A DNA stretch of 64,000 nt from Stenomitos rutilans HA7619-LM2 (GTDB lineage: Bacteria; Cyanobacteriota; Cyanobacteriia; Leptolyngbyales; Leptolyngbyaceae). Below are positions 6,294 to 15,638 of this stretch, in pieces. Below the pieces are notes generated by a model. That model did no database searches, was not told the origin of the DNA, and worked only from the letters and a program-made list of their open reading frames with translations. Every line of letters begins with the position of its first letter. Position 1 is the stretch's first letter. The stretch covers positions 1-64,000 of the forward strand of contig JAHHIE010000017.1 of NCBI GenBank assembly GCA_019358945.1, in the 5' to 3' direction. A program made the translations under genes and the position numbers.

Positions 6294-6587
6294 TTATTCC
6301 CAGGTAGAGATTGGCCTCAAAATGGCTGGAATTTCAGCCTGAGCTGGAAACTCTAGCTGGGTTTCTCGCAAGCCCAGGTAGCCCGATTCAGTGAAAGAAA
6401 GCAACATCCGCTGGAGTGCCAGCCAGACATCGGCTTCATACTCCCAATCGCGCTGGCGATGGGCTTGAGCGGCAATCGATCGCAACGCCCAAAAATAACT
6501 GTTCCGTACCACCGAACCGCCTTTTTTGTAGGCCGGTACGTCTTCGTGGTGAAGAAACACAATTTCTTGCTCAATTCTGGCTCTCAT
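6294..6587 (-). CDS. Conserved-looking small hypothetical protein
   Basis: A 97-residue product from the ATG at 6587: MRARIEQEIVFLHHEDVPAY, then VRNSYFWALRSIAAQAHRQRD, WLALQRMLLSFTESGYLG, and a C-terminus with PAILRPI. It is well balanced, soluble and helical, with no signal peptide or membrane segment. The composition looks like a real cyanobacterial gene of unknown function. A TTG extension to 6638 is possible but adds a poorly coding stretch. No domain is recognised, and both neighbours are separated by long gaps. Confidence 0.5.
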   Translation of the reverse strand: MRARIEQEIVFLHHEDVPAYKKGGSVVRNSYFWALRSIAAQAHRQRDWEYEADVWLALQRMLLSFTESGYLGLRETQLEFPAQAEIPAILRPISTWE

Positions 6588-6823
6588 AAGGCTAGTACAC
6601 CTTGTCGGAAACAACCTGTCACTTTCACAAAAGCTCAAAGGCAGAAATAACGAAGCTTTTGCCTTCCTACTTCTGCCTTTCTACACTAGGAAGGTTCGCT
6701 TTTTGCTTGACGATTTACACCGAAAGCATCGCTTTAGACAACTTATAAAGTTAGTTAAAGTTGTAGTTGCATATACAGGCACTTTAAAGTTTGTGCAGCC
6801 AGAATAGAGGCATAGAAATCTCC

Positions 6824-6930
6824 GAATGATTCAGAGGGATCGCTGGCAACCTGATGATCTCAATAGCGAAAGCACGGCTGCGGACAAAGCTATATCCGCA
6901 GGCTGTTGTGGTGCGAAGGTGTGGCTGTCA
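6824..6930 (+). ncRNA. Candidate structured leader RNA
   Basis: Between 6588 and 6990 there is no gene, but the last 170 bases hold nested pairing: TCGCT (6840-6844) with AGCGA (6865-6869), and CTGCGGA (6878-6884) with TCCGCAG (6895-6901), closed further by GCAC near 6871 and GTGC near 6911. It lies 60 bp before a zinc-ribbon gene. It matches no riboswitch consensus I could check by eye, so it is only a structural candidate. Confidence 0.25.
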
Positions 6931-6990
6931 TATTAAAGCAGCGTTTCAAACGTAACGATTTAAAACTCTAAAGATTAAACGGGTGATGAA

Positions 6991-7257
6991 ATGGCAACTT
7001 GCCCTTTATGCTCTGACATTTTACTGCGCCATCTTCGCTCTGGTAAACCCTACTGGCTTTGTCGGCGTTGCCGCGTCGAAATTTTAGAAAAGAAAGATTT
7101 AACGGCAAAAAACTACCCTGCACACGAGGCTAGTCCCAGAGCGCTTCCACTTCCCATCCCTGCACATCACGCCGTCATCCGATTGCCAACGCTAGAGCGT
7201 GATTCCCCTGCCGGACGTGTTCAGCATCAACAGCCCTCTATGACGATCGACGTTTAG
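6991..7257 (+). CDS. Small zinc-ribbon-like protein
   Basis: An 88-residue protein with a treble of cysteine pairs near its start: CPLC at residues 4-7 and CRRC at about 24-27 (ATCPLCSDILLRHLRSG, then PYWLCRRCRVEI). This spacing fits a compact zinc ribbon. The rest is Pro/His-rich and probably disordered. Such proteins often sit by signalling genes in cyanobacteria. Here the next gene is an HD-GYP response regulator about 300 bp downstream on the same strand. Binding of zinc is inferred from the motif only, and the partner is unknown. Confidence 0.6.
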   Translation: MATCPLCSDILLRHLRSGKPYWLCRRCRVEILEKKDLTAKNYPAHEASPRALPLPIPAHHAVIRLPTLERDSPAGRVQHQQPSMTIDV

Positions 7258-7561
7258 CCAGCTTCAGGCGGCTTGGTTGCCTGATCGCTCAAGTGCGTAC
7301 TGCGTCCGAGGTTTGATTGTTGCACCGTGAGTAACAGCCGCAACACATCAAGCGCTTCTTTGACAGGATTTACGTTGATCCTCGTGAACTTACCCAGTTT
7401 GCAGAGCACTGATCTCCGTGAAAAGCCCGATTTCGCGCTCCTGGCAATTGCTCATACTAGAGTTCAACACCCTGATAAAAACACCACACTTGCTAGTAGC
7501 ACGCAGTGAGCGGTGCTCCATTAGACGAGTGTGTTTTATCCCTATCGTGAGGTCTGCTTTA
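7258..7561 (+). other. Intergenic or leader region before the HD-GYP regulator
   Basis: About 300 bp without a convincing gene. The regulator's reading frame extends upstream to 7418, but that part (with stretches such as LLVARSERCSIRR) does not look like protein. The gene very likely starts at 7562, and this is untranslated sequence. No hairpin terminator or tRNA was seen. Confidence 0.45.
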
Positions 7562-8584
7562 GTGAACCGCCTTTATACAGAGCGACCCAGAGTGCTTGTT
7601 GTGGATGATAATCCTTCCAGTCGGCTCACGGCAGTGGCGTTGCTGTCAGTTGAAGGCTACGACGTACTGGAGGCAGATAGTGGCCCCGCAGCGTTAGACT
7701 CTATTGTTGCAACCAATCCTGATTTAATTCTTTTGGATGTCATGATGCCTGGGATGGACGGCTTTGAAGTGTGTCGTCGCCTCAAGCAAGATGAGCAAAC
7801 GCGCCTGACTCCTGTGGTTTTTGTAACCGCGTTGGACGATCGTCGTGCGCGCTTAAAAGGCATTGAAGCTGGTGGTGATGATTTTTTAACAAAACCATTT
7901 GATCAGCTTGAACTGTCTGCTCGTGTTAAATCGCTAATTCGTCAAAAACGTTTGAACGAAGATCTGGATCACGCCGAAAGAGTGCTTTTTTCGATCGCGC
8001 AGACCGTTGAAAGTCGTGATCCTAATACAGGTGACCATTGTGAACGCCTTGTGGCTCACGGCAAAGCCTTTGGAGAATTTTTGGGGCTGTCTCGTATCGA
8101 GATCCGTGATCTAATGTGGGGTGGGTATCTCCATGACATTGGCAAAGTAGGCATTCCTGATGCGATTTTGCTGAAACCAGGAAAATTTACCCCTGAAGAA
8201 TGGGAGGTCATGCAGCAGCACGTACTCATTGGAGTAAAAATCTGCCAACCGTTGCGAACGATGCGCGGCGTATTGCCTATCATTCGTCATCACCACGAAC
8301 GGTGGGATGGGACGGGGTATCCAGACGGTTTGGCGGGGGAGCAAATTCCTCTACTGGCGCAAATTTTTCAAATCATCGATATTTACGATGCGTTGACCAG
8401 TGAACGTCCGTATAAGAAAGCCTTTACCCCGATCGAGGCACTGACGATTTTGGACGAAGAAACCGCTAAAGGCTGGCGCAACCCTGAGTTAGTCGAGCGG
8501 TTTAGAGAATTTGTTCAATCGGCTCCAGTGCAGTCAGAGCAAGACGTGCCGCTTGAGTTATCACGCATCCCACAATCAGCCTGA
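7562..8584 (+). CDS. HD-GYP response regulator (predicted c-di-GMP phosphodiesterase)
   Basis: This two-domain protein of about 340 aa probably hydrolyses cyclic-di-GMP under control of a sensor kinase. The N-terminal receiver has the acidic pair in RVLVVDDNPSSR, the phospho-acceptor in LILLDVMMPGMDG, and the conserved Lys in FLTKPF. The C-terminal domain has the HD pair in YLHDIGKVGIPD and the family motif HHERWDGTGYP, followed by IIDIYDALTSERPYK. I chose the GTG at 7562 because GAGG precedes it at a suitable distance and receiver domains start just here; a longer frame from 7418 exists. No cognate histidine kinase is adjacent. The small zinc-ribbon gene lies upstream on the same strand. Confidence 0.9.
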   Translation: MNRLYTERPRVLVVDDNPSSRLTAVALLSVEGYDVLEADSGPAALDSIVATNPDLILLDVMMPGMDGFEVCRRLKQDEQTRLTPVVFVTALDDRRARLKGIEAGGDDFLTKPFDQLELSARVKSLIRQKRLNEDLDHAERVLFSIAQTVESRDPNTGDHCERLVAHGKAFGEFLGLSRIEIRDLMWGGYLHDIGKVGIPDAILLKPGKFTPEEWEVMQQHVLIGVKICQPLRTMRGVLPIIRHHHERWDGTGYPDGLAGEQIPLLAQIFQIIDIYDALTSERPYKKAFTPIEALTILDEETAKGWRNPELVERFREFVQSAPVQSEQDVPLELSRIPQSA

Positions 8585-8766
8585 CCAGAATCTGACCAGC
8601 CTTGAGCCACGGAAGCCGTGCTGTTCAGGGAGAAATTAGCGGCTGAAAAGTGCCTTTACCAGGTCATGTCGGTAAGACGAATGGTATCCTGTAAAGCGTG
8701 ACGAGGTGGAGCAGTGGCGCGATCGACGTGCTTCTCTCCACTGCAAACTAAGTGGCAAAAACGATC

Positions 8767-10149
8767 ATGGTAGCGGTGGCAATTTTAGCTGCTGGACGAG
8801 GCACGCGGATGAAATCTGACTTGCCCAAGGTCTTGCACCAACTTGGAGGGAAAGCTCTGATTGAATGGGTGCTTGGTAGTCTATCAGCGGTTGAAACGGT
8901 TCGACGATTAGTCATTGTGGGCTATCAAGGCGAACTGGTTGCACAAGCGCTGATGAACGAAAAGAACAATGGCACAGCAACTCGGTTGGAATTTGTAGAG
9001 CAGCCAGAGCAACTGGGCACTGGGCATGCTGTCCAGCAGCTATTGCCTCATTTGGAAGGGTTTCAGGGCGATTTGCTGATCTTGAATGGGGATGTGCCAT
9101 TGCTGCGCCCCCAAACGCTTAAGCATTTGCTACAAACCCATCGAGAGCATCACAATGCAGCCACGATTCTGACGGCTCAGTTGCCTAATCCTAAAGGTTA
9201 CGGACGAGTGTTTTGCAACAGTCAAAACCTGTTGCAGCAAATTGTTGAAGACCGTGACTGCACACCAGCACAAAAGCAAAACCGTCGCATTAATGCTGGC
9301 ATCTACTGCTTCCGCTGGGTTGACCTGGCTGCCGTGTTGCCAAAGCTGACTACCAATAATGACCAGCAAGAGTACTATCTGACCGATGTAGTCAACTACC
9401 TTGATCCGGTGATGGCGGTTGATGTCGAGGATTACCAGGAGATTCTCGGCATTAACGATCGCAAGCAGCTTGCCACCGCGTATGACATCCTTCAAGCCCG
9501 GATTAAAGACGACTGGATGGCCGCTGGGGTCACGTTGATTGACCCAGATAGCATCACGATCGATGATACGGTGACGTTAGAACCAGATGTCGTGATTGAA
9601 CCTCAAACCCATTTGCGGGGAACGACGACAATTAGAGCTGGTAGCCGCATTGGCCCCGGTAGCCTGGTTGAAAATAGCCACATTGGTGCCAATGTAACGG
9701 TACTGTACTCGGTAGTGGTTGGCAGTACTGTGGCCGCCAACACCCGCATTGGCCCTTACACTCACTTTCGAGGGCAGGTTGAAACGGGTTCGGGTTGTCG
9801 TATTGGTAACTTTGTTGAACTGAAAAATACCAGACTGGGCGATCGTACCAATGTGGCGCACCTTTCCTACCTCGGTGATGCAACGCTGGGGCATCAGGTG
9901 AATGTGGGTGCTGGCACGATTACCGCTAACTATGACGGCGTGAAAAAGCACCGAACGCAGATTGGCGATCGCACCAAAACAGGTGCTAACAGTGTTTTAG
10001 TTGCACCGATTACGGTTGGCGAAGATGTCAATATTGCGGCTGGCTCAACGGTGACAGAGAACGTTCCAGATGATTGCCTCGTCATTGCCCGTGCCCGTCA
10101 AGTGCTTAAACCAGGCTGGAAACTTAAAGCAAAGACGTTAGAAACTTGA
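8767..10149 (+). CDS. glmU: Bifunctional GlmU: N-acetylglucosamine-1-P uridyltransferase and glucosamine-1-P acetyltransferase
   Basis: GlmU acetylates glucosamine-1-phosphate and couples it to UTP, producing UDP-GlcNAc for peptidoglycan and lipopolysaccharide. The N-terminal nucleotidyltransferase motif is [18 protein letters not shown], with QLGTGHAV and LNGDVPLL further on. The second half is a left-handed beta-helix of hexapeptides ([36 protein letters not shown]), ending in a basic tail. Usual family length is about 455 aa. I place the start at ATG 8767 ([10 protein letters not shown]), where orthologues begin; a GTG at 8752 would add five residues. It overlaps the convergent gene at 10138 by 12 bp. 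Confidence 0.95.
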
Positions 10150-11316
10150 GCCGTTGGCAAATCCCTGGTCATAAGCCGATTCGTAGCCCATTGGCACTTG
10201 CCGCTGGTGCTGGAGTTTGGCATCCCAGTAGCCTGCTTCCCACCAGAGATAGTTCGATCGCTCACGGCTGAGGGCATAAGGGTTAATGGTCTCTGGTTGC
10301 AGCGTGAGCAAGTTCTGGCTGCGTTGATTGGCGGGTAGTCGTGCAAGCTGCTGTTGTGCGATGGTCAAAGCACGGGCGATCGCTAGCAGCCGTCGTTCTT
10401 GATCGTGGCGAATGCTGGGTTCAATGTTGCCCAGTCCGGGAGCATCCCAGCGGTTCTTCTGGGGATTCCAATAGCTCCAGACCCGCGCTTCGAGGATGGC
10501 ATTCTGTCCGCTGAAGCCCTTTTGCTTGGCTTGCAGTAGGCGATCGAGGTATCCCTGATCACTCAAGGCTGCCAGGGGCGCTTGGTTCGCCAGATCCACG
10601 CCGTTGAGTGCTTCCATTAGCGTCATTCGCAGCTTTGCAGCCGTTGCCTGTCGTTCCAAAGCTGCATGTTGTACCTGTAAGCGTTGCAGTTGGCGATCGT
10701 CCGCTTCTTCAGGAGTCGAGCAGCGGTAGCGTGCTTCCCCACAGTGCTGAAACGAGAAGCTACCCAGGTTCCAAACTCCGTTGCCAGGGTCTTTGTGCCC
10801 GTAGTACGCGCGGGTTTTGCGACCGTCTGGTGTGCGTGTGCCTTCAGCATGACCTACAGTGCGGGCTACCAGTGAATTTGAGCCGCCTGCAAATAGCACT
10901 TGCCGATTAGACAAAGTACTGCGTCCCTTGCTGGCAAGTGGTGGCTTGGGCACAACAGCACTTTTTTCAGCACTTGGCTGCCGTTGCCAATCAAAATCAG
11001 CTCTCCATGCGGGAATGCAGGTCACGATAAGGAGCGCCATCCCCACCCACCCTGCATGAACCAGCAGCAGCAGTTCTCCGCGCGATCGTGCGTTTCGCGG
11101 CGGGTGAGAGGGCACAGCAGCGATCGGACGTAGCGTCTGCGGTAGAACAGCACGTTGGCGTTGATATGGTTCTTTGAGGACAGCCTGGGCGATCGACTTT
11201 CTCAAAACGACACGTTTAATCAGGACGAGTGTTCTACTTATTTTACCCTGCTGGCAGAGTGTCTCATCATATTTAGCTACTTCAACCAGCGATGCTACGC
11301 AAGTTCGGTCACTCAA
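10138..11316 (-). CDS. Membrane-anchored hypothetical protein
   Basis: A protein of up to 392 aa with one membrane segment about 85 residues in ([22 protein letters not shown]), then a largely soluble, helical exported part. A motif around [25 protein letters not shown] recurs, as I remember it, in other uncharacterised cyanobacterial proteins. After it come Gln-rich helices ([20 protein letters not shown]) and an end with [18 protein letters not shown]. The TTG at 11316 lies at the edge of an AAAACTC repeat, and the first 50-60 residues look weak, so the true start may be a later GTG. Function is unknown. Confidence 0.65.
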
Positions 11317-11343
11317 AACTCAAAACTTAAAACTGAGAACTGG
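11307..11343. repeat. Heptameric AAAACTC short tandem repeat
   Basis: Tandem AAAACTC-type units (ctcaaaactcaaaacttaaaactgag) just upstream of the minus-strand gene ending at 11316. These heptamers belong to the short tandemly repeated repetitive sequences known from filamentous cyanobacteria. Here they abut, and perhaps supply, the apparent start codon of that gene. Confidence 0.7.
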
Positions 11344-11494
11344 TACTAGTTGGGTCATCCAATGAGGTGATATAAAGTCATTCGATCGGATGAACTCAAT
11401 GAATTTTGGGTAGCTTTTTGCGTAAAGCGTTCATCACGCTTCGAGTCATAAAAAGTAGCCTACTTTACCAATTCATCCTGTAAGGAGACGTTTT

Positions 11495-11977
11495 ATGTTG
11501 CACCACTTTTCGATCGCGGCTGAAAACCCTGCTCGTGTGGCCCAAGCTCTGGCAAATCTTCTCAACGGCGAATTTGCCTCCTTCCTACCTCATCCTGGTA
11601 GCTTTATGGCGCTCTCGTTGGATCGCTATGGCACGATGATCGAGGTTTACCCTGCCGAAACGGAACTGATGCCAGGGTTTGGTGCCGAGCAGGTCACCTT
11701 TTCCAGCAATGCCTTTGCCTCGCCATTTAGTGCTACCCACGTGGCGATTTCCGTACCGCTTAGTCAAGAAGACATTGAACGCGTTGCTGCACGGGAAGGC
11801 TGGCGAGCCGTTCGTTGCAACCGTGATGGCTTCTTTGATGTCATTGAAGTTTGGGTTGAGAATAAGCTGATGCTAGAGTTTCTAACCCCTGCGATGGCTG
11901 CAAAATATACTGAGTTTATGCAGCCTCAAAACCTGGCAAAATTCTTCGAGACGGCTGGTGAATCGGTGGCGGTCTGA
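11495..11977 (+). CDS. VOC/glyoxalase-like hypothetical protein
   Basis: A 160-residue soluble protein starting MLHHFSIAAENPARVAQAL. It has alternating strand-helix elements like a vicinal-oxygen-chelate half: HHFSIAAENP, then ALSLDRYGTMIEVYP, a helix, THVAISVPLSQEDIERVAAREGW and LMLEFLTP. His and Glu residues sit where metal ligands would be in the family (HF early, E in IEVYP, H in THVAI, E in MLEFLTP). No substrate can be named. A strong AGGAG lies 8-10 bp before the ATG. It stands alone between two intergenic regions. Confidence 0.65.
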   Translation: MLHHFSIAAENPARVAQALANLLNGEFASFLPHPGSFMALSLDRYGTMIEVYPAETELMPGFGAEQVTFSSNAFASPFSATHVAISVPLSQEDIERVAAREGWRAVRCNRDGFFDVIEVWVENKLMLEFLTPAMAAKYTEFMQPQNLAKFFETAGESVAV

Positions 11978-12256
11978 TCTCGATCGCTAAGAGGCGCACG
12001 ATCGCTTTATTCTCTTCAACAGACTCTCTGCGGTTTGAGCCAGAATCATAGCTCTACAAGAGCGCCATCTCCCTTTGCTGGCGGGTTTGCTGAAGTTAAT
12101 GTCAGGAGTAAGGCGATGATTGATCGATCGCACCCACAAGCGTTTGCCATCAAGCGTTGATGAATTCGACGTTGACGATCGTGCTTTGCTGCTTGGCAGG
12201 TTTGGGATAATCTCTAGTAGCGACTATCTCTACCTGACGTGCGATCGGTGCTACCC

Positions 12257-13393
12257 ATGCCACAGTTTGAGAACGACTCCGATTTCAAGACGGTTGTCCT
12301 ACAGCACTTTGAGCAGGACGGCTGGACGGCAACCGTTGCCCCCGCCGATGTGATCGGCTACGACCTTGAGCTGACCAGAGACAGTGAGTGTGTCGCCGTG
12401 CAGGTGAAGCAGCAACGGGCAAAAGTCCACGCGGGACAGCTAGAAAAATTTATCGACTTTCTAGAGAGTCCAACAGGGGCCAAGTTCACGCGCGGCTTTC
12501 TGATCTCAGCCTCAGGCTTTACGCCCTCTGTGTTTACCTACATGCGGGCGGAAGAGGTTGTTGATGTGGCGATCGGTAGCTTCAAAGGCACCGAACTAAC
12601 TTGGGAAGATGGGGATATTCCACCGCAACCGCCCAAAGCACACATCACTTACATCGGGGTCTTTACCTGTAAGGGAGGAGTGGGTAAAACAACGATCAGC
12701 GCCCACCTTGCAGGAGCCTTTGCGCTGAATGGGTATGATGTGGTGCTGATTGATCTCGATCGCCAGAGCAACTTGCGAAAACTCCTCGGTGATGGCGTGT
12801 ACATTCCGGGACGCAGAGGGGGACTAGGCGCAACCATTACCGTCCTCAACCACACCGAATGGCGCGAAGAGGACTATCCCGAAACGCGAGTCGTCATTTG
12901 TGATTGCAGCCCAGAGTACGATGCCAACCCCGAAGCCTTTATCGAAAAGTTTAGCTATTGCCTGATTCCAACGACGCTAAATCCTCTTGGCATCAACAAG
13001 AACGCTGATGTAATCCGTCGCACCTTTACGGCTATTCGGCGCATCAATACTAATGCCGAACTGTTTGTCATCGTCAACAACTATCACAGCGACGAAGCCA
13101 AACGAAACGATGTGTTAAACCGCATCCTCAAGACTGAGTTTGAAACCTTAATGGCAGATGATCCCAGATGTCATTACATTGACCCTGAAACCGTCGCCAT
13201 TCGCTTCAGCAAGCAGCTTTTGTACTGGGGTTATCACATTGTTGAGAACGATAAACCCCAGTTAGCCTTTCGAGAAATTGGCGGTCGATCGCTCCCTCGC
13301 ACCGATTTCCTCAAGCTGCTCGATTACTTAGAAGACCACACCAACATCGAAGCTGCAAAAGCAAAGGAAATGGGCGCAGCTGGGAACAAATAA
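12257..13393 (+). CDS. Fusion of Mrr-type restriction endonuclease domain and ParA-type ATPase
   Basis: A 378-residue protein from ATG 12257 (MPQFENDSDF). Residues about 1-115 look like an Mrr/PD-(D/E)xK nuclease fold: FKTVVLQHFEQDGW, then the catalytic-type Asp in GYDLELT (Asp36) and the QxK form in AVQVKQQ (Gln49, Lys51), then GFLISASGFTPSV. Residues about 130-378 are a MinD/ParA ATPase with deviant Walker A CKGGVGKTT (138-146), VLIDLDRQSN and VVICDCSPEYD. ParA proteins normally partition DNA, and Mrr domains cut modified or foreign DNA. Joining them suggests ATP-dependent positioning of a nuclease, possibly in defence, which is inference. No ParB or methylase is adjacent. Confidence 0.85.
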   Translation: MPQFENDSDFKTVVLQHFEQDGWTATVAPADVIGYDLELTRDSECVAVQVKQQRAKVHAGQLEKFIDFLESPTGAKFTRGFLISASGFTPSVFTYMRAEEVVDVAIGSFKGTELTWEDGDIPPQPPKAHITYIGVFTCKGGVGKTTISAHLAGAFALNGYDVVLIDLDRQSNLRKLLGDGVYIPGRRGGLGATITVLNHTEWREEDYPETRVVICDCSPEYDANPEAFIEKFSYCLIPTTLNPLGINKNADVIRRTFTAIRRINTNAELFVIVNNYHSDEAKRNDVLNRILKTEFETLMADDPRCHYIDPETVAIRFSKQLLYWGYHIVENDKPQLAFREIGGRSLPRTDFLKLLDYLEDHTNIEAAKAKEMGAAGNK

Positions 13394-13455
13394 CTATCGG
13401 CGCTAGCAGCCAGAAGTCAGGAGTCAGAAGAAAGCTAATGGCTGATAACGCAAAC

Positions 13456-13701
13456 CTACTCGGCAAGCGATCGTTTGAAAATATAAAGATAGGTCAACGT
13501 GCGAATACGGCTGAACTCTCCACCATGTGCTTCGTCAATGGAATGCACTGCTACTAATTCCCAGCCACGCTGTCCCAAAAAATTTAGTCCTTCTGCAAGT
13601 TTGTATTCCTGGCCGTTCAGAGTGAGAATCCGGTGACCATTCTTACTAGGTTTCCCCTCTACTTTGACAGAGGAGTACGCTTCAAGATACTGCCACTTCA
13701 T
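13456..13701 (-). CDS. DUF4177-like small protein
   Basis: An 81-residue protein with the short alpha/beta layout of DUF4177: MKWQYLEAYSSVKV at the start, a helix-loop with KLAEGLNFLGQRGWELVAVHSI, and a closing strand LTYLYIFKRSL. The GWELVAV core and the terminal YIFKR are characteristic. Function of the family is unknown. It lies 29 bp downstream of the ABC permease gene on the same strand, so it may be co-transcribed with that exporter. Confidence 0.7.
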   Translation of the reverse strand: MKWQYLEAYSSVKVEGKPSKNGHRILTLNGQEYKLAEGLNFLGQRGWELVAVHSIDEAHGGEFSRIRTLTYLYIFKRSLAE

Positions 13702-13729
13702 CGTTTTTTTCCTGCGCCATGTGAATCTC

Positions 13730-14518
13730 TCACGCTCCCATCCCCGAATATTGCTTTAAGCCCTTGTGCCACAGCCAGCGGTAAATGGCGAAAAATACAG
13801 CCGTCCAGCCGAGCATAACCAGCAATCCTTGACCGAGGTTGACAGGCAGACCGACTAGGAGACTGGCAGGAAAGTGAATCAGATAAGGGAACGGTGTCCA
13901 GAGGACGATCGCGCGCATTTGCGGCGGGTAAACTTCCAGCGGCGCTACCATGCCCGATAAAAACAAGTAAAACAGAAACCAGAACTGCTCCAACGCACTA
14001 GCACGCTCCGTCCAAAAAGCAAACATCGACAGCGTGTACTGCATCAAAAACCGTAGCGTAAACGCACAGACAGCCGCCAGGAAGAACAGGAGCAAACTGC
14101 CCAAACTGGGGAGCCAAAACGACTGCGGGTAGAGCCAGAAGAAGAGCGCAATCAGCCCAAACGCAAACGGCAACCGGGCGAAGCGCTCCGCAAAGTGGGA
14201 GAAAAAGTAGTGCCATGCGGGATCAAGCGGTTGCAGCAGACGAAACGATAGCTTGCCCTCGACAATCTCGCGTTCAAATTCCCAGATGACCCACACGACC
14301 GTGAACTGCCGCACGATGAAGGCGGCCAGAAAGTAGCGGGCAAAATCAACGGGTGTTAAGCCAAAGTTTCCCGTCGTGGCTGCTTGCATCCAGATGCCCA
14401 TCAGAATGATTGGGAGCGATCCCGACAGCACCCACAGCAACAGCTCAGCACGGTACTCCACCATGTAGGCGTAGTAGACAGAAGACATGGTACGGGCGAT
14501 GTTGATGATGCGATTCAT
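13730..14518 (-). CDS. ABC-2 type transporter permease (DUF990-like)
   Basis: A 262-residue inner-membrane permease of the ABC2_membrane_6/DUF990 type, with about six hydrophobic segments (for example LLLWVLSGSLPIILMGIW, GLIALFFWLYP, LLLFFLAAVCAF and GLLVMLGWTAVFFAIYRWLW). The cytoplasmic EFEREIVEGKLSFRLLQPLDP between the early helices is typical. It would form the channel for the ATPase encoded just upstream (14655-15638). Such systems usually have two different permeases, and only one is seen here. The substrate is unknown. Repeats of GTTTTGA fill the 136 bp between the two genes. Confidence 0.88.
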   Translation of the reverse strand: MNRIINIARTMSSVYYAYMVEYRAELLLWVLSGSLPIILMGIWMQAATTGNFGLTPVDFARYFLAAFIVRQFTVVWVIWEFEREIVEGKLSFRLLQPLDPAWHYFFSHFAERFARLPFAFGLIALFFWLYPQSFWLPSLGSLLLFFLAAVCAFTLRFLMQYTLSMFAFWTERASALEQFWFLFYLFLSGMVAPLEVYPPQMRAIVLWTPFPYLIHFPASLLVGLPVNLGQGLLVMLGWTAVFFAIYRWLWHKGLKQYSGMGA

Positions 14519-14535
14519 GGGAGTGGGGAAAGGGA

Positions 14536-14600
14536 AGTTTTGAGTTTTGAGTTTTAAGTTTTGAGTTTGCAGTCAGGAGTTAAAAGAGTTTTGAGTTTAG
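14536..14600. repeat. Heptameric repeats (AAAACTC and GGAGTCA types)
   Basis: Reverse-oriented AAAACTC units (agttttgagttttgagtttt) followed by a single gcagtcaggag block, between the ABC ATPase and permease genes. Same repeat families as elsewhere in the window. Confidence 0.75.
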
Positions 14601-14654
14601 TTAATTGTGACTCCTCCTACCTCTCACCTCTCACCGCTCCCTTCCCTTCTACCT

Positions 14655-15638
14655 TCATGCAGCCACTCCCGATCGCAAGACTCGTCCAATCACTTCTTCG
14701 ATCGGGGGTTCTGTGACTGCCAGATCGACAATTTCCAGCTCCGATAGCAGCTTGGCAACCGTGCGTGTGAGACGCTCTTGAGGCACTAAAAATTTGGCGA
14801 TCGCCCCCTCGACCGACTCCAAATCGCCATATAAAGACAACTGTTCGCGGGGGTAGAGATGTGCCAGTTCCACGTTCACTTCGCGGCAGGGGGCAAAGCG
14901 ATCGACCAGACCATCCAGGCTACCATCGTAGATTAATTGCCCCTGGTGGATAACCAGCACCCGCTGACAGAGCGCTGTGATATCTGCCATGTAGTGACTG
15001 GTCAATAAAACCGTCGCCTGATAGCGCTGATTATACTCGCGCAAAAACTCACGGACGCTAACCTGAGCATTCACATCCAAGCCCAGCGTTGGTTCGTCTA
15101 GAAACAGAACGTGCGGCTGATGAATCAGGGCTGCTAGTAGCTCGGCTTTCATCCTTTCACCCAGGGACAATTTACGCACGGCTTGAGTCAACTTGCCTTC
15201 GAGAGACAGCATTTCGGTGAGTTCACCTACTCGCATTTTGAAGTCGCGATCGCTGATCCCATACACGGCTGCATTAATTCGCAGGGAATCCAGCGCAGGT
15301 AAGTCCCAAATCAACTGCTGCTTCTGCCCCATCACCAACGTAATTTTTTGCAAAAACGCAAATTTGCGCTGAAAAGGGACATGCCCTGCCACAGTGACCC
15401 GTCCTGCTGATGGGTGAATGAGTCCAGTCAGCATTTTCAACGTGGTGGTCTTTCCCGCTCCGTTCGCACCCAGAAAGCCCACTACTTCTCCTGGCTCGAT
15501 CGCAAACGAAATGGCTTGAACAGCTTTGATCTGACGATACGTGCGGCGGAAAAAATGCTGCACCGTCCCTTTCAGCCCCGGCTCTTTCACTGCAACGGGA
15601 TAGAGCTTGCTCAAGTTTTCCGCCAAAATTACAGGCAT
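14655..15638 (-). CDS. ABC transporter ATP-binding protein
   Basis: The 327-residue ATPase of an ABC-2 exporter. Walker A is GANGAGKTTT (about residues 55-64), the signature is LSLGERMKAE, Walker B is VLFLDEPTLGLD, and the H-loop is LLTSHYMADI. The C-terminal extension of about 90 residues (AHLYPREQLSLYGDLE, LLSELEIVDLAVTEP) is usual in the DUF990-associated ATPases. Its permease lies downstream on the same strand. Substrate is unknown; related systems export lipids, polysaccharides or drugs. Confidence 0.93.
   Translation of the reverse strand: MPVILAENLSKLYPVAVKEPGLKGTVQHFFRRTYRQIKAVQAISFAIEPGEVVGFLGANGAGKTTTLKMLTGLIHPSAGRVTVAGHVPFQRKFAFLQKITLVMGQKQQLIWDLPALDSLRINAAVYGISDRDFKMRVGELTEMLSLEGKLTQAVRKLSLGERMKAELLAALIHQPHVLFLDEPTLGLDVNAQVSVREFLREYNQRYQATVLLTSHYMADITALCQRVLVIHQGQLIYDGSLDGLVDRFAPCREVNVELAHLYPREQLSLYGDLESVEGAIAKFLVPQERLTRTVAKLLSELEIVDLAVTEPPIEEVIGRVLRSGVAA

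Follow-up and report, generated by a model that had tools for sequence, protein, structure and literature searches.

A single cyanobacterial gene in the 64-kb window (the whole stretch of DNA analysed here) joins an Mrr-type nuclease domain to a ParA-type ATPase, and the question it raises is whether the ATPase directs a nuclease or whether the restriction-like part of the protein has another role. The open reading frame at 12257-13393 of the forward strand is a real gene. It starts at an ATG, and close relatives align from residue 1 of this form; an alternative GTG lies 18 bases upstream. The features of the gene are as follows.

12257-13393, forward strand: Mrr-ParA fusion gene, 378 aa (ORF call, Pfam)
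12257-12610, forward strand: N-terminal PD-(D/E)XK (Mrr-type) domain, residues 1-118 (Pfam, predicted model, PDB match)
12362-12364, forward strand: Asp36, putative catalytic acid (D in 49/61 aligned sequences)
12401-12409, forward strand: Gln49-Val50-Lys51 (position 51 K or R in 56/61, K in 40/61)
12611-12646, forward strand: short linker, residues 119-130, low confidence (mean pLDDT of block 121-130, 61)
12647-13348, forward strand: ParA-type ATPase domain, residues 131-364 (CbiA match, ParF/Soj structural match)
12671-12694, forward strand: deviant Walker A KGGVGKTT, residues 139-146 (K139, K144 and T145 in 62/62)
12752-12760, forward strand: D166-L-D168, Walker A' region (both Asp in 62/62)
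12902-12904, forward strand: Asp216, Walker B (62/62)
13202-13204, forward strand: Arg316 (position basic in 61/61)

The two-domain architecture proposed in the initial annotation was recovered by Pfam, with both domains above their cut-offs: Mrr_cat (PF04471) at residues 8-99, with 34.8 bits against a cut-off of 21, and CbiA (PF01656) at residues 136-291, with 57.9 bits against 25.4. Mrr_cat was also above its cut-off in all seven relatives scanned. Asp36, Gln49 and Lys51 lie where they had been placed, as does the deviant Walker A motif at residues 139-146. The structure predictions suggested for both domains likewise agreed with the proposal. Residues 1-118, modelled alone with AlphaFold2 (pLDDT 90.7, pTM 0.85), are predicted to carry the PD-(D/E)XK core fold; the best PDB match of this model is AF1548 (1y88; Z 12.7, 105 aligned residues, rmsd 2.4), followed at Z 8-10 by PaqCI, LlaBIII, AspBHI, MspJI, EndoMS and Avs4 (8dgf; Z 8.3, 111 aligned, rmsd 3.0), among others. 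A sequence profile of the domain found 1y88 (E 0.037) and an Hjc (E 0.069), both weakly. The window copy has kept all three residues of the nuclease triad (D36/Q49/K51); its N-terminal domain is acidic (net charge -9, pI 4.6; family median +2, pI 8.7), a composition that does not suggest that this copy would bind DNA strongly. A separate second Mrr_cat domain was found in the same genome (L112, G000:C25:63438-63779; 110.7 bits, open frame of 148 aa).

The ATPase domain was taken from a whole-chain AlphaFold2 model (pLDDT 86.2, pTM 0.84) based on a 37-row family alignment, that is, the window protein and 36 of the 41 relative loci in the genome_contigs collection, a few of which are cut by contig ends. 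It resembles ParF (5u1g_C; Z 21.6, 202 aligned, rmsd 2.5) and Soj (2bej; Z 20.1, 202 aligned, rmsd 2.9), and Arg316 presumably occupies the place of the DNA-binding arginine of Soj-type ParA proteins. The NCBIfam equivalog for ParA partition ATPases (NF041546) gave 59.6 bits, below its cut-off of 180.

The fusion family and its two active sites

The Mrr-ParA fusion is a coherent family. The survey of homologous fusions that the initial annotation had suggested yielded 62 distinct sequences, including that of the window, from six phyla, the neighbouring genes varying by lineage; the match of the relatives to the window protein is far above chance. Named sources are Cyanobacteriota, Acidobacteriota, Pseudomonadota (Chromatiaceae, Thiotrichaceae), and metagenome-assembled genomes (MAGs) of Desulfobacteraceae, Nitrospirota and Puniceicoccaceae; as many sources are MAGs, single outliers may be contaminants. 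Near-full-length relatives are present in 11 of 386 cyanobacterial genomes, the window's own genome counted. Near that genome the fusion was found in 17 of 58 genomes: all seven of its own genus, 10 of 28 other family members, and none of 23 outside the family. In the phylum of a Pyrinomonadaceae carrier two of 297 genomes have it (that carrier counted), and in the class of a Thiospirillum carrier it is confined to the carrier itself (1 of 274). No complete ATPase-only close relative was found among the relatives searched; none of the 14 places in the search of 386 cyanobacterial genomes begins beyond query residue 14, and partial matches occurred in fragmented genomes (G398 and G416, near the own genome) or at contig ends. 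In the tree the Acidobacteriota rows group with the window clade, with weak support (87/58), so transfer between phyla, undated, is likely.

Several carrier genomes have two copies. Tandem copies were observed in two Acidobacteriota MAGs (L042 and L044, near 6400-10700), and their four rows in the tree all have changed triads (NRL, NKV, and NKF twice). The reading frame of the Hyella patelloides copy (L045:7983-9179) is interrupted by a stop about 41 residues in, reflecting either a broken gene or an assembly error. A Synechococcales MAG encodes a triple fusion, Mrr-ParA-HEPN_Swt1 (L043:7974-9638), with the HEPN domain at the C-terminus (126.1 bits) and an Rx4H motif read by eye. Among 706 neighbour ORFs, nothing else matched the HEPN part of this protein; HEPN_Swt1 was detected in three of eight carrier genomes, namely in L043 itself and in two frames of more than 1100 aa.

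Residues of the two active sites were counted in the 62 sequences, a set leaving out five short pieces (L029, L035, L089, L091, L097_2) and two entries from the same genome with in-frame stops (L045, L099). The ATPase residues K139, K144, T145, D166, D168 and D216 are intact in every sequence. The nuclease triad is intact in 34, changed in 27 and gapped over the motif in one, L108, which was removed for the 61-row maximum-likelihood tree; residue 36 of L041, which begins at a contig end, is doubtful. D36 and K51 are jointly retained in 36 of the 62, two rows scored as lost (DHK) keeping both. The commonest non-intact state is DQR (11 rows), and position 51 remains basic in 56 of 61 because the lost Lys51 has mostly become Arg, a replacement that may leave activity in place. 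On the tree, the intact/lost label needs six changes, and the starred branches force six as the minimum. Relatives very close to the window protein are among those changed (Asn36 in L021, 94% identical; Arg51 in L023, 89%). The triad is intact in all eight rows of one cyanobacterial group, in all 12 rows of a group with Thiotrichaceae and Desulfobacteraceae, and in the Chromatiaceae and Xenococcaceae rows. The family-wide conserved D...(E/Q)xK triad expected of an active Mrr-type nuclease was thus not found. Loss of active-site residues across homologues had been named beforehand as speaking against a nuclease; such loss is indeed widespread, but the window copy itself has been spared.

Substitution rates indicate that the N-terminal domain remains under selection where the triad is lost. 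In pairs in which both members have lost it (n = 32, of which 29 are Acidobacteriota), the median ratio of domain dN to whole-gene dS is 0.170 for the N-domain and 0.086 for the C-domain. The corresponding medians for pairs with both triads intact (n = 82) are 0.362 and 0.234, values raised by distant pairs whose dS is close to saturated, as it is in many pairs of the comparison; the two sets are not matched, since both-intact pairs are mostly deeper. L051 and L075 have an N-domain dN of 0.004 at a dS of 1.44. Of 91 pairs close to the window, nine were usable; in these the median dN/dS is 0.10 for the N-domain and 0.024 for the ATPase, a roughly fourfold faster evolution of the N-domain. As far as can be judged from the aligned sequences, the two active sites evolve under different constraint; an intact ATPase site beside a repeatedly lost cutting site suggests a sensing or binding role for the restriction-like part, without a need to cut.

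Genomic setting

The gene had been described as solitary, and its surroundings bear this out. One flanking ORF, of 160 aa, has no Pfam match; at 13456-13701 on the reverse strand lies a small convergent ORF with a sub-threshold match to DUF4177 (17.4 bits, cut-off 25); a pair of ABC-2 permease and ABC ATPase genes also flanks the fusion, and SSB, MreB and TatC are encoded in the same window. This small ORF was seen beside the fusion gene in four of the clustered loci. A PADLOC scan of the 10 ORFs near the gene found no match except for an ordinary ABC ATPase, no RNA elements reached the gathering score in 10500-15500, and the promoter and terminator scans gave signals no higher than chance level.

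Across lineages the fusion gene is solitary and has no fixed partner. A conserved operon partner was rejected, as most neighbour clusters recur within one lineage only: Acidobacteriota loci share peroxiredoxin-like and YkgJ-like ORFs, one cyanobacterial group has a phosphoesterase-like ORF, and the own family has permease genes (names given by eye). The widest cluster is ABC-ATPase-like, occurring at 17 loci across lineages, but at varying distances. Many neighbours of the relatives resemble ordinary chromosomal genes (82 of 122 scanned; best 25 of 111 families). In the own family, 12 of the 17 carriers, representing five genera (G000, G060, G386-G389, G391, G398, G401, G402, G409 and G416), have the gene less than 2.5 kb from the permease gene that flanks it in the window; the permease gene itself is present in 35 of 39 family genomes. 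With this retained synteny, the fusion gene looks like a long-term resident and not like recent cargo.

Eight carrier genomes gave 16 ParB_N matches, none of them closer than 150 kb to the fusion gene; the nearest is about 157 kb away (G306), and two of the eight genomes have no ParB_N match at E 0.001. The own genome has five, none of them on the contig of the window, and three of these have another ParA-like match no more than about 1.5 kb away. With the ParB_N domain as the marker, the fusion gene therefore lacks the adjacent ParB gene that defines ParABS systems.

A mobile-element origin was rejected, since the matches listed for plasmids, phages and viral contigs were all of a generic ParA or P-loop kind, none of them full-length; the viral profile scan returned at least 80 loci and was not exhaustive. 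The idea of a compact defence gene or plasmid-exclusion factor, raised in the initial annotation, gained no direct support. The window protein gave only partial weak matches in PADLOC (2023 library), and among 82 neighbour proteins (of 122) no defence family matched more than two (best 25 of 34 families). Single neighbours of some relatives do match defence models (REase_II with E 2.5e-102, PDC-M37B, IetA/IetS, PycC, PtuB), so some copies adjoin defence genes.

Possible functions

By sequence and predicted structure, a complete deviant-Walker ATPase and a restriction-fold domain are combined in one solitary, lineage-retained gene. The reading that we favour, with confidence about evenly divided, is that the fusion is a ParA-type ATP switch whose restriction-fold domain serves for recognition or sensing, cutting being dispensable in much of the family. 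ATP binding would produce the ParA sandwich dimer and then non-specific DNA binding, while the restriction-fold domain would recognise a DNA state or a nucleotide ligand, a role akin to that of the N-terminal HTH of long plasmid ParAs or of the inactive restriction endonucleases proposed to act beside immune NTPases. The conserved activity would be ATP turnover, and cutting would be an optional output at most, possibly surviving in certain lineages and gone from others; the window copy, with its triad, could still cut. This is consistent with the ATPase site conserved throughout as against a triad kept in little more than half of the sequences, the low N-domain dN/dS in both-lost pairs, the lack of an ATPase-only close relative, the presence in the whole of the own genus, the permease synteny, and the distance from any ParB_N gene. 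The intact triads of the window copy and of whole clades argue against it, as does the acidic window N-domain.

An active, ATP-licensed nuclease in a one-gene defence system, in which the ParA domain would load or position the Mrr domain for cutting foreign or damaged DNA, seems to us rather unlikely. It would account for the clades with intact triads, the structural resemblance to restriction enzymes and Avs4, the HEPN domain with its Rx4H motif in L043, the patchy occurrence across phyla, and the defence genes beside some relatives; however, the triad is changed repeatedly, even in close relatives, the gene is retained in synteny over long times in its own family, full-length phage, viral-contig or plasmid matches are absent among the matches listed, and PADLOC models fit the protein only partially. 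As a function of the family, the licensed nuclease proposed in the initial annotation is weakened, because only 34 of the 62 sequences have kept the triad whole. The last of its options, a dead nuclease within a regulatory protein, would suit much of the family, but the window copy keeps the triad. Long plasmid ParAs carry an N-terminal DNA-binding (HTH) domain, and this, together with the complete ParA site and fold and the retained synteny, would agree with an orphan positioning protein, a ParA that places cargo or a locus on the nucleoid and for which the restriction-fold domain would be no more than an adaptor to cargo or DNA. That explanation we regard as unlikely: no ParB_N gene is nearby in eight genomes, the score against the partition model is far below its cut-off, and the rarity of the gene among cyanobacterial genomes speaks against a general housekeeping role.

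Within the favoured reading of an ATP switch with a sensing domain, the HEPN addition in L043 is in keeping with published proposals on inactive restriction endonucleases beside immune NTPases and on ParA-like regulators of HEPN toxins, and hints at conflict biology, in one of 62 sequences. More speculatively, and with considerable doubt, the fusion could be a one-gene, ATP-driven surveillance switch, in which the restriction-fold domain replaces ParB or HTH and senses DNA structure or a nucleotide signal, the nuclease being optional and a HEPN RNase supplementing it in one lineage.

Comparison with known systems

Both domains have been described before; among the open papers searched, which are part of the literature, no title or passage listed gives a name to a conserved Mrr-ParA fusion whose nuclease site varies. 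The PADLOC candidate PDC-M28B matches the window protein around the P-loop (26.2 bits) and was rejected as the family, since a KGGVGR variant and a different N-terminus were seen in the six loci read. Cyanobacterial KGGVGR-variant ATPases of this different family (L257-L259) were seen with an adjoining second P-loop-like ORF.

Avs4 combines an Mrr-type nuclease domain with a STAND NTPase. The fusion likewise has an N-terminal PD-(D/E)XK domain before an NTPase; however, its NTPase is ParA-type, its chain is without sensor repeats, and its triad is unconserved. In NA-iREase1 (NACHT-associated inactive REase, PF22722) a restriction fold also stands beside an NTPase. This model was sub-threshold in four of seven relatives (L043, L046, L056, L060; best 20.5 against a cut-off of 27) and gave no match to the window protein at E 1; unlike NA-iREase1, the fusion has another NTPase class and a triad intact in about half of the family. 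Inactive restriction endonucleases paired with immune NTPases have been proposed to be nucleotide sensors (PMC12839542).

HEPN-ParA/Soj gene pairs have been proposed as toxin-antitoxin systems in which ParA-like ATPases regulate HEPN toxins (PMC3710099). L043 also links a ParA-like ATPase to a HEPN RNase, but holds a Swt1-type HEPN within one chain. HEPN-ParA dyads were rejected as a source of the fusion, which was within about 1.5 kb of none of 30 cyanobacterial HEPN_MAE_28990 loci; the search covered this HEPN family, the paper naming the MAE_18760 family as well.

With the PD-(D/E)XK domains of the Mrr_cat, Hjc and AF1548 types, the fusion shares the fold, the D...QxK motif and a GFLISASGF-like strand, and it differs from them in being joined to a ParA ATPase and in the changed triad of many relatives. 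With the ParA, Soj and ParF partition ATPases it shares the deviant Walker A, DxD and Walker B motifs and the fold (Z 20-22); in contrast to these, it adds the restriction-fold N-domain, has no ParB_N nearby in the eight genomes, and bears a C-terminal signature of its own (YWG, LAF, P..DF), outside the NCBIfam partition model. The choice of cargo or DNA site by a ParA-type ATPase normally depends on a partner. A family with no ParB neighbour, and with a restriction-fold domain in its own chain, would offer a simple model of a switch reading DNA, in which the naturally intact and changed triads let the need for cutting be tested across close relatives.
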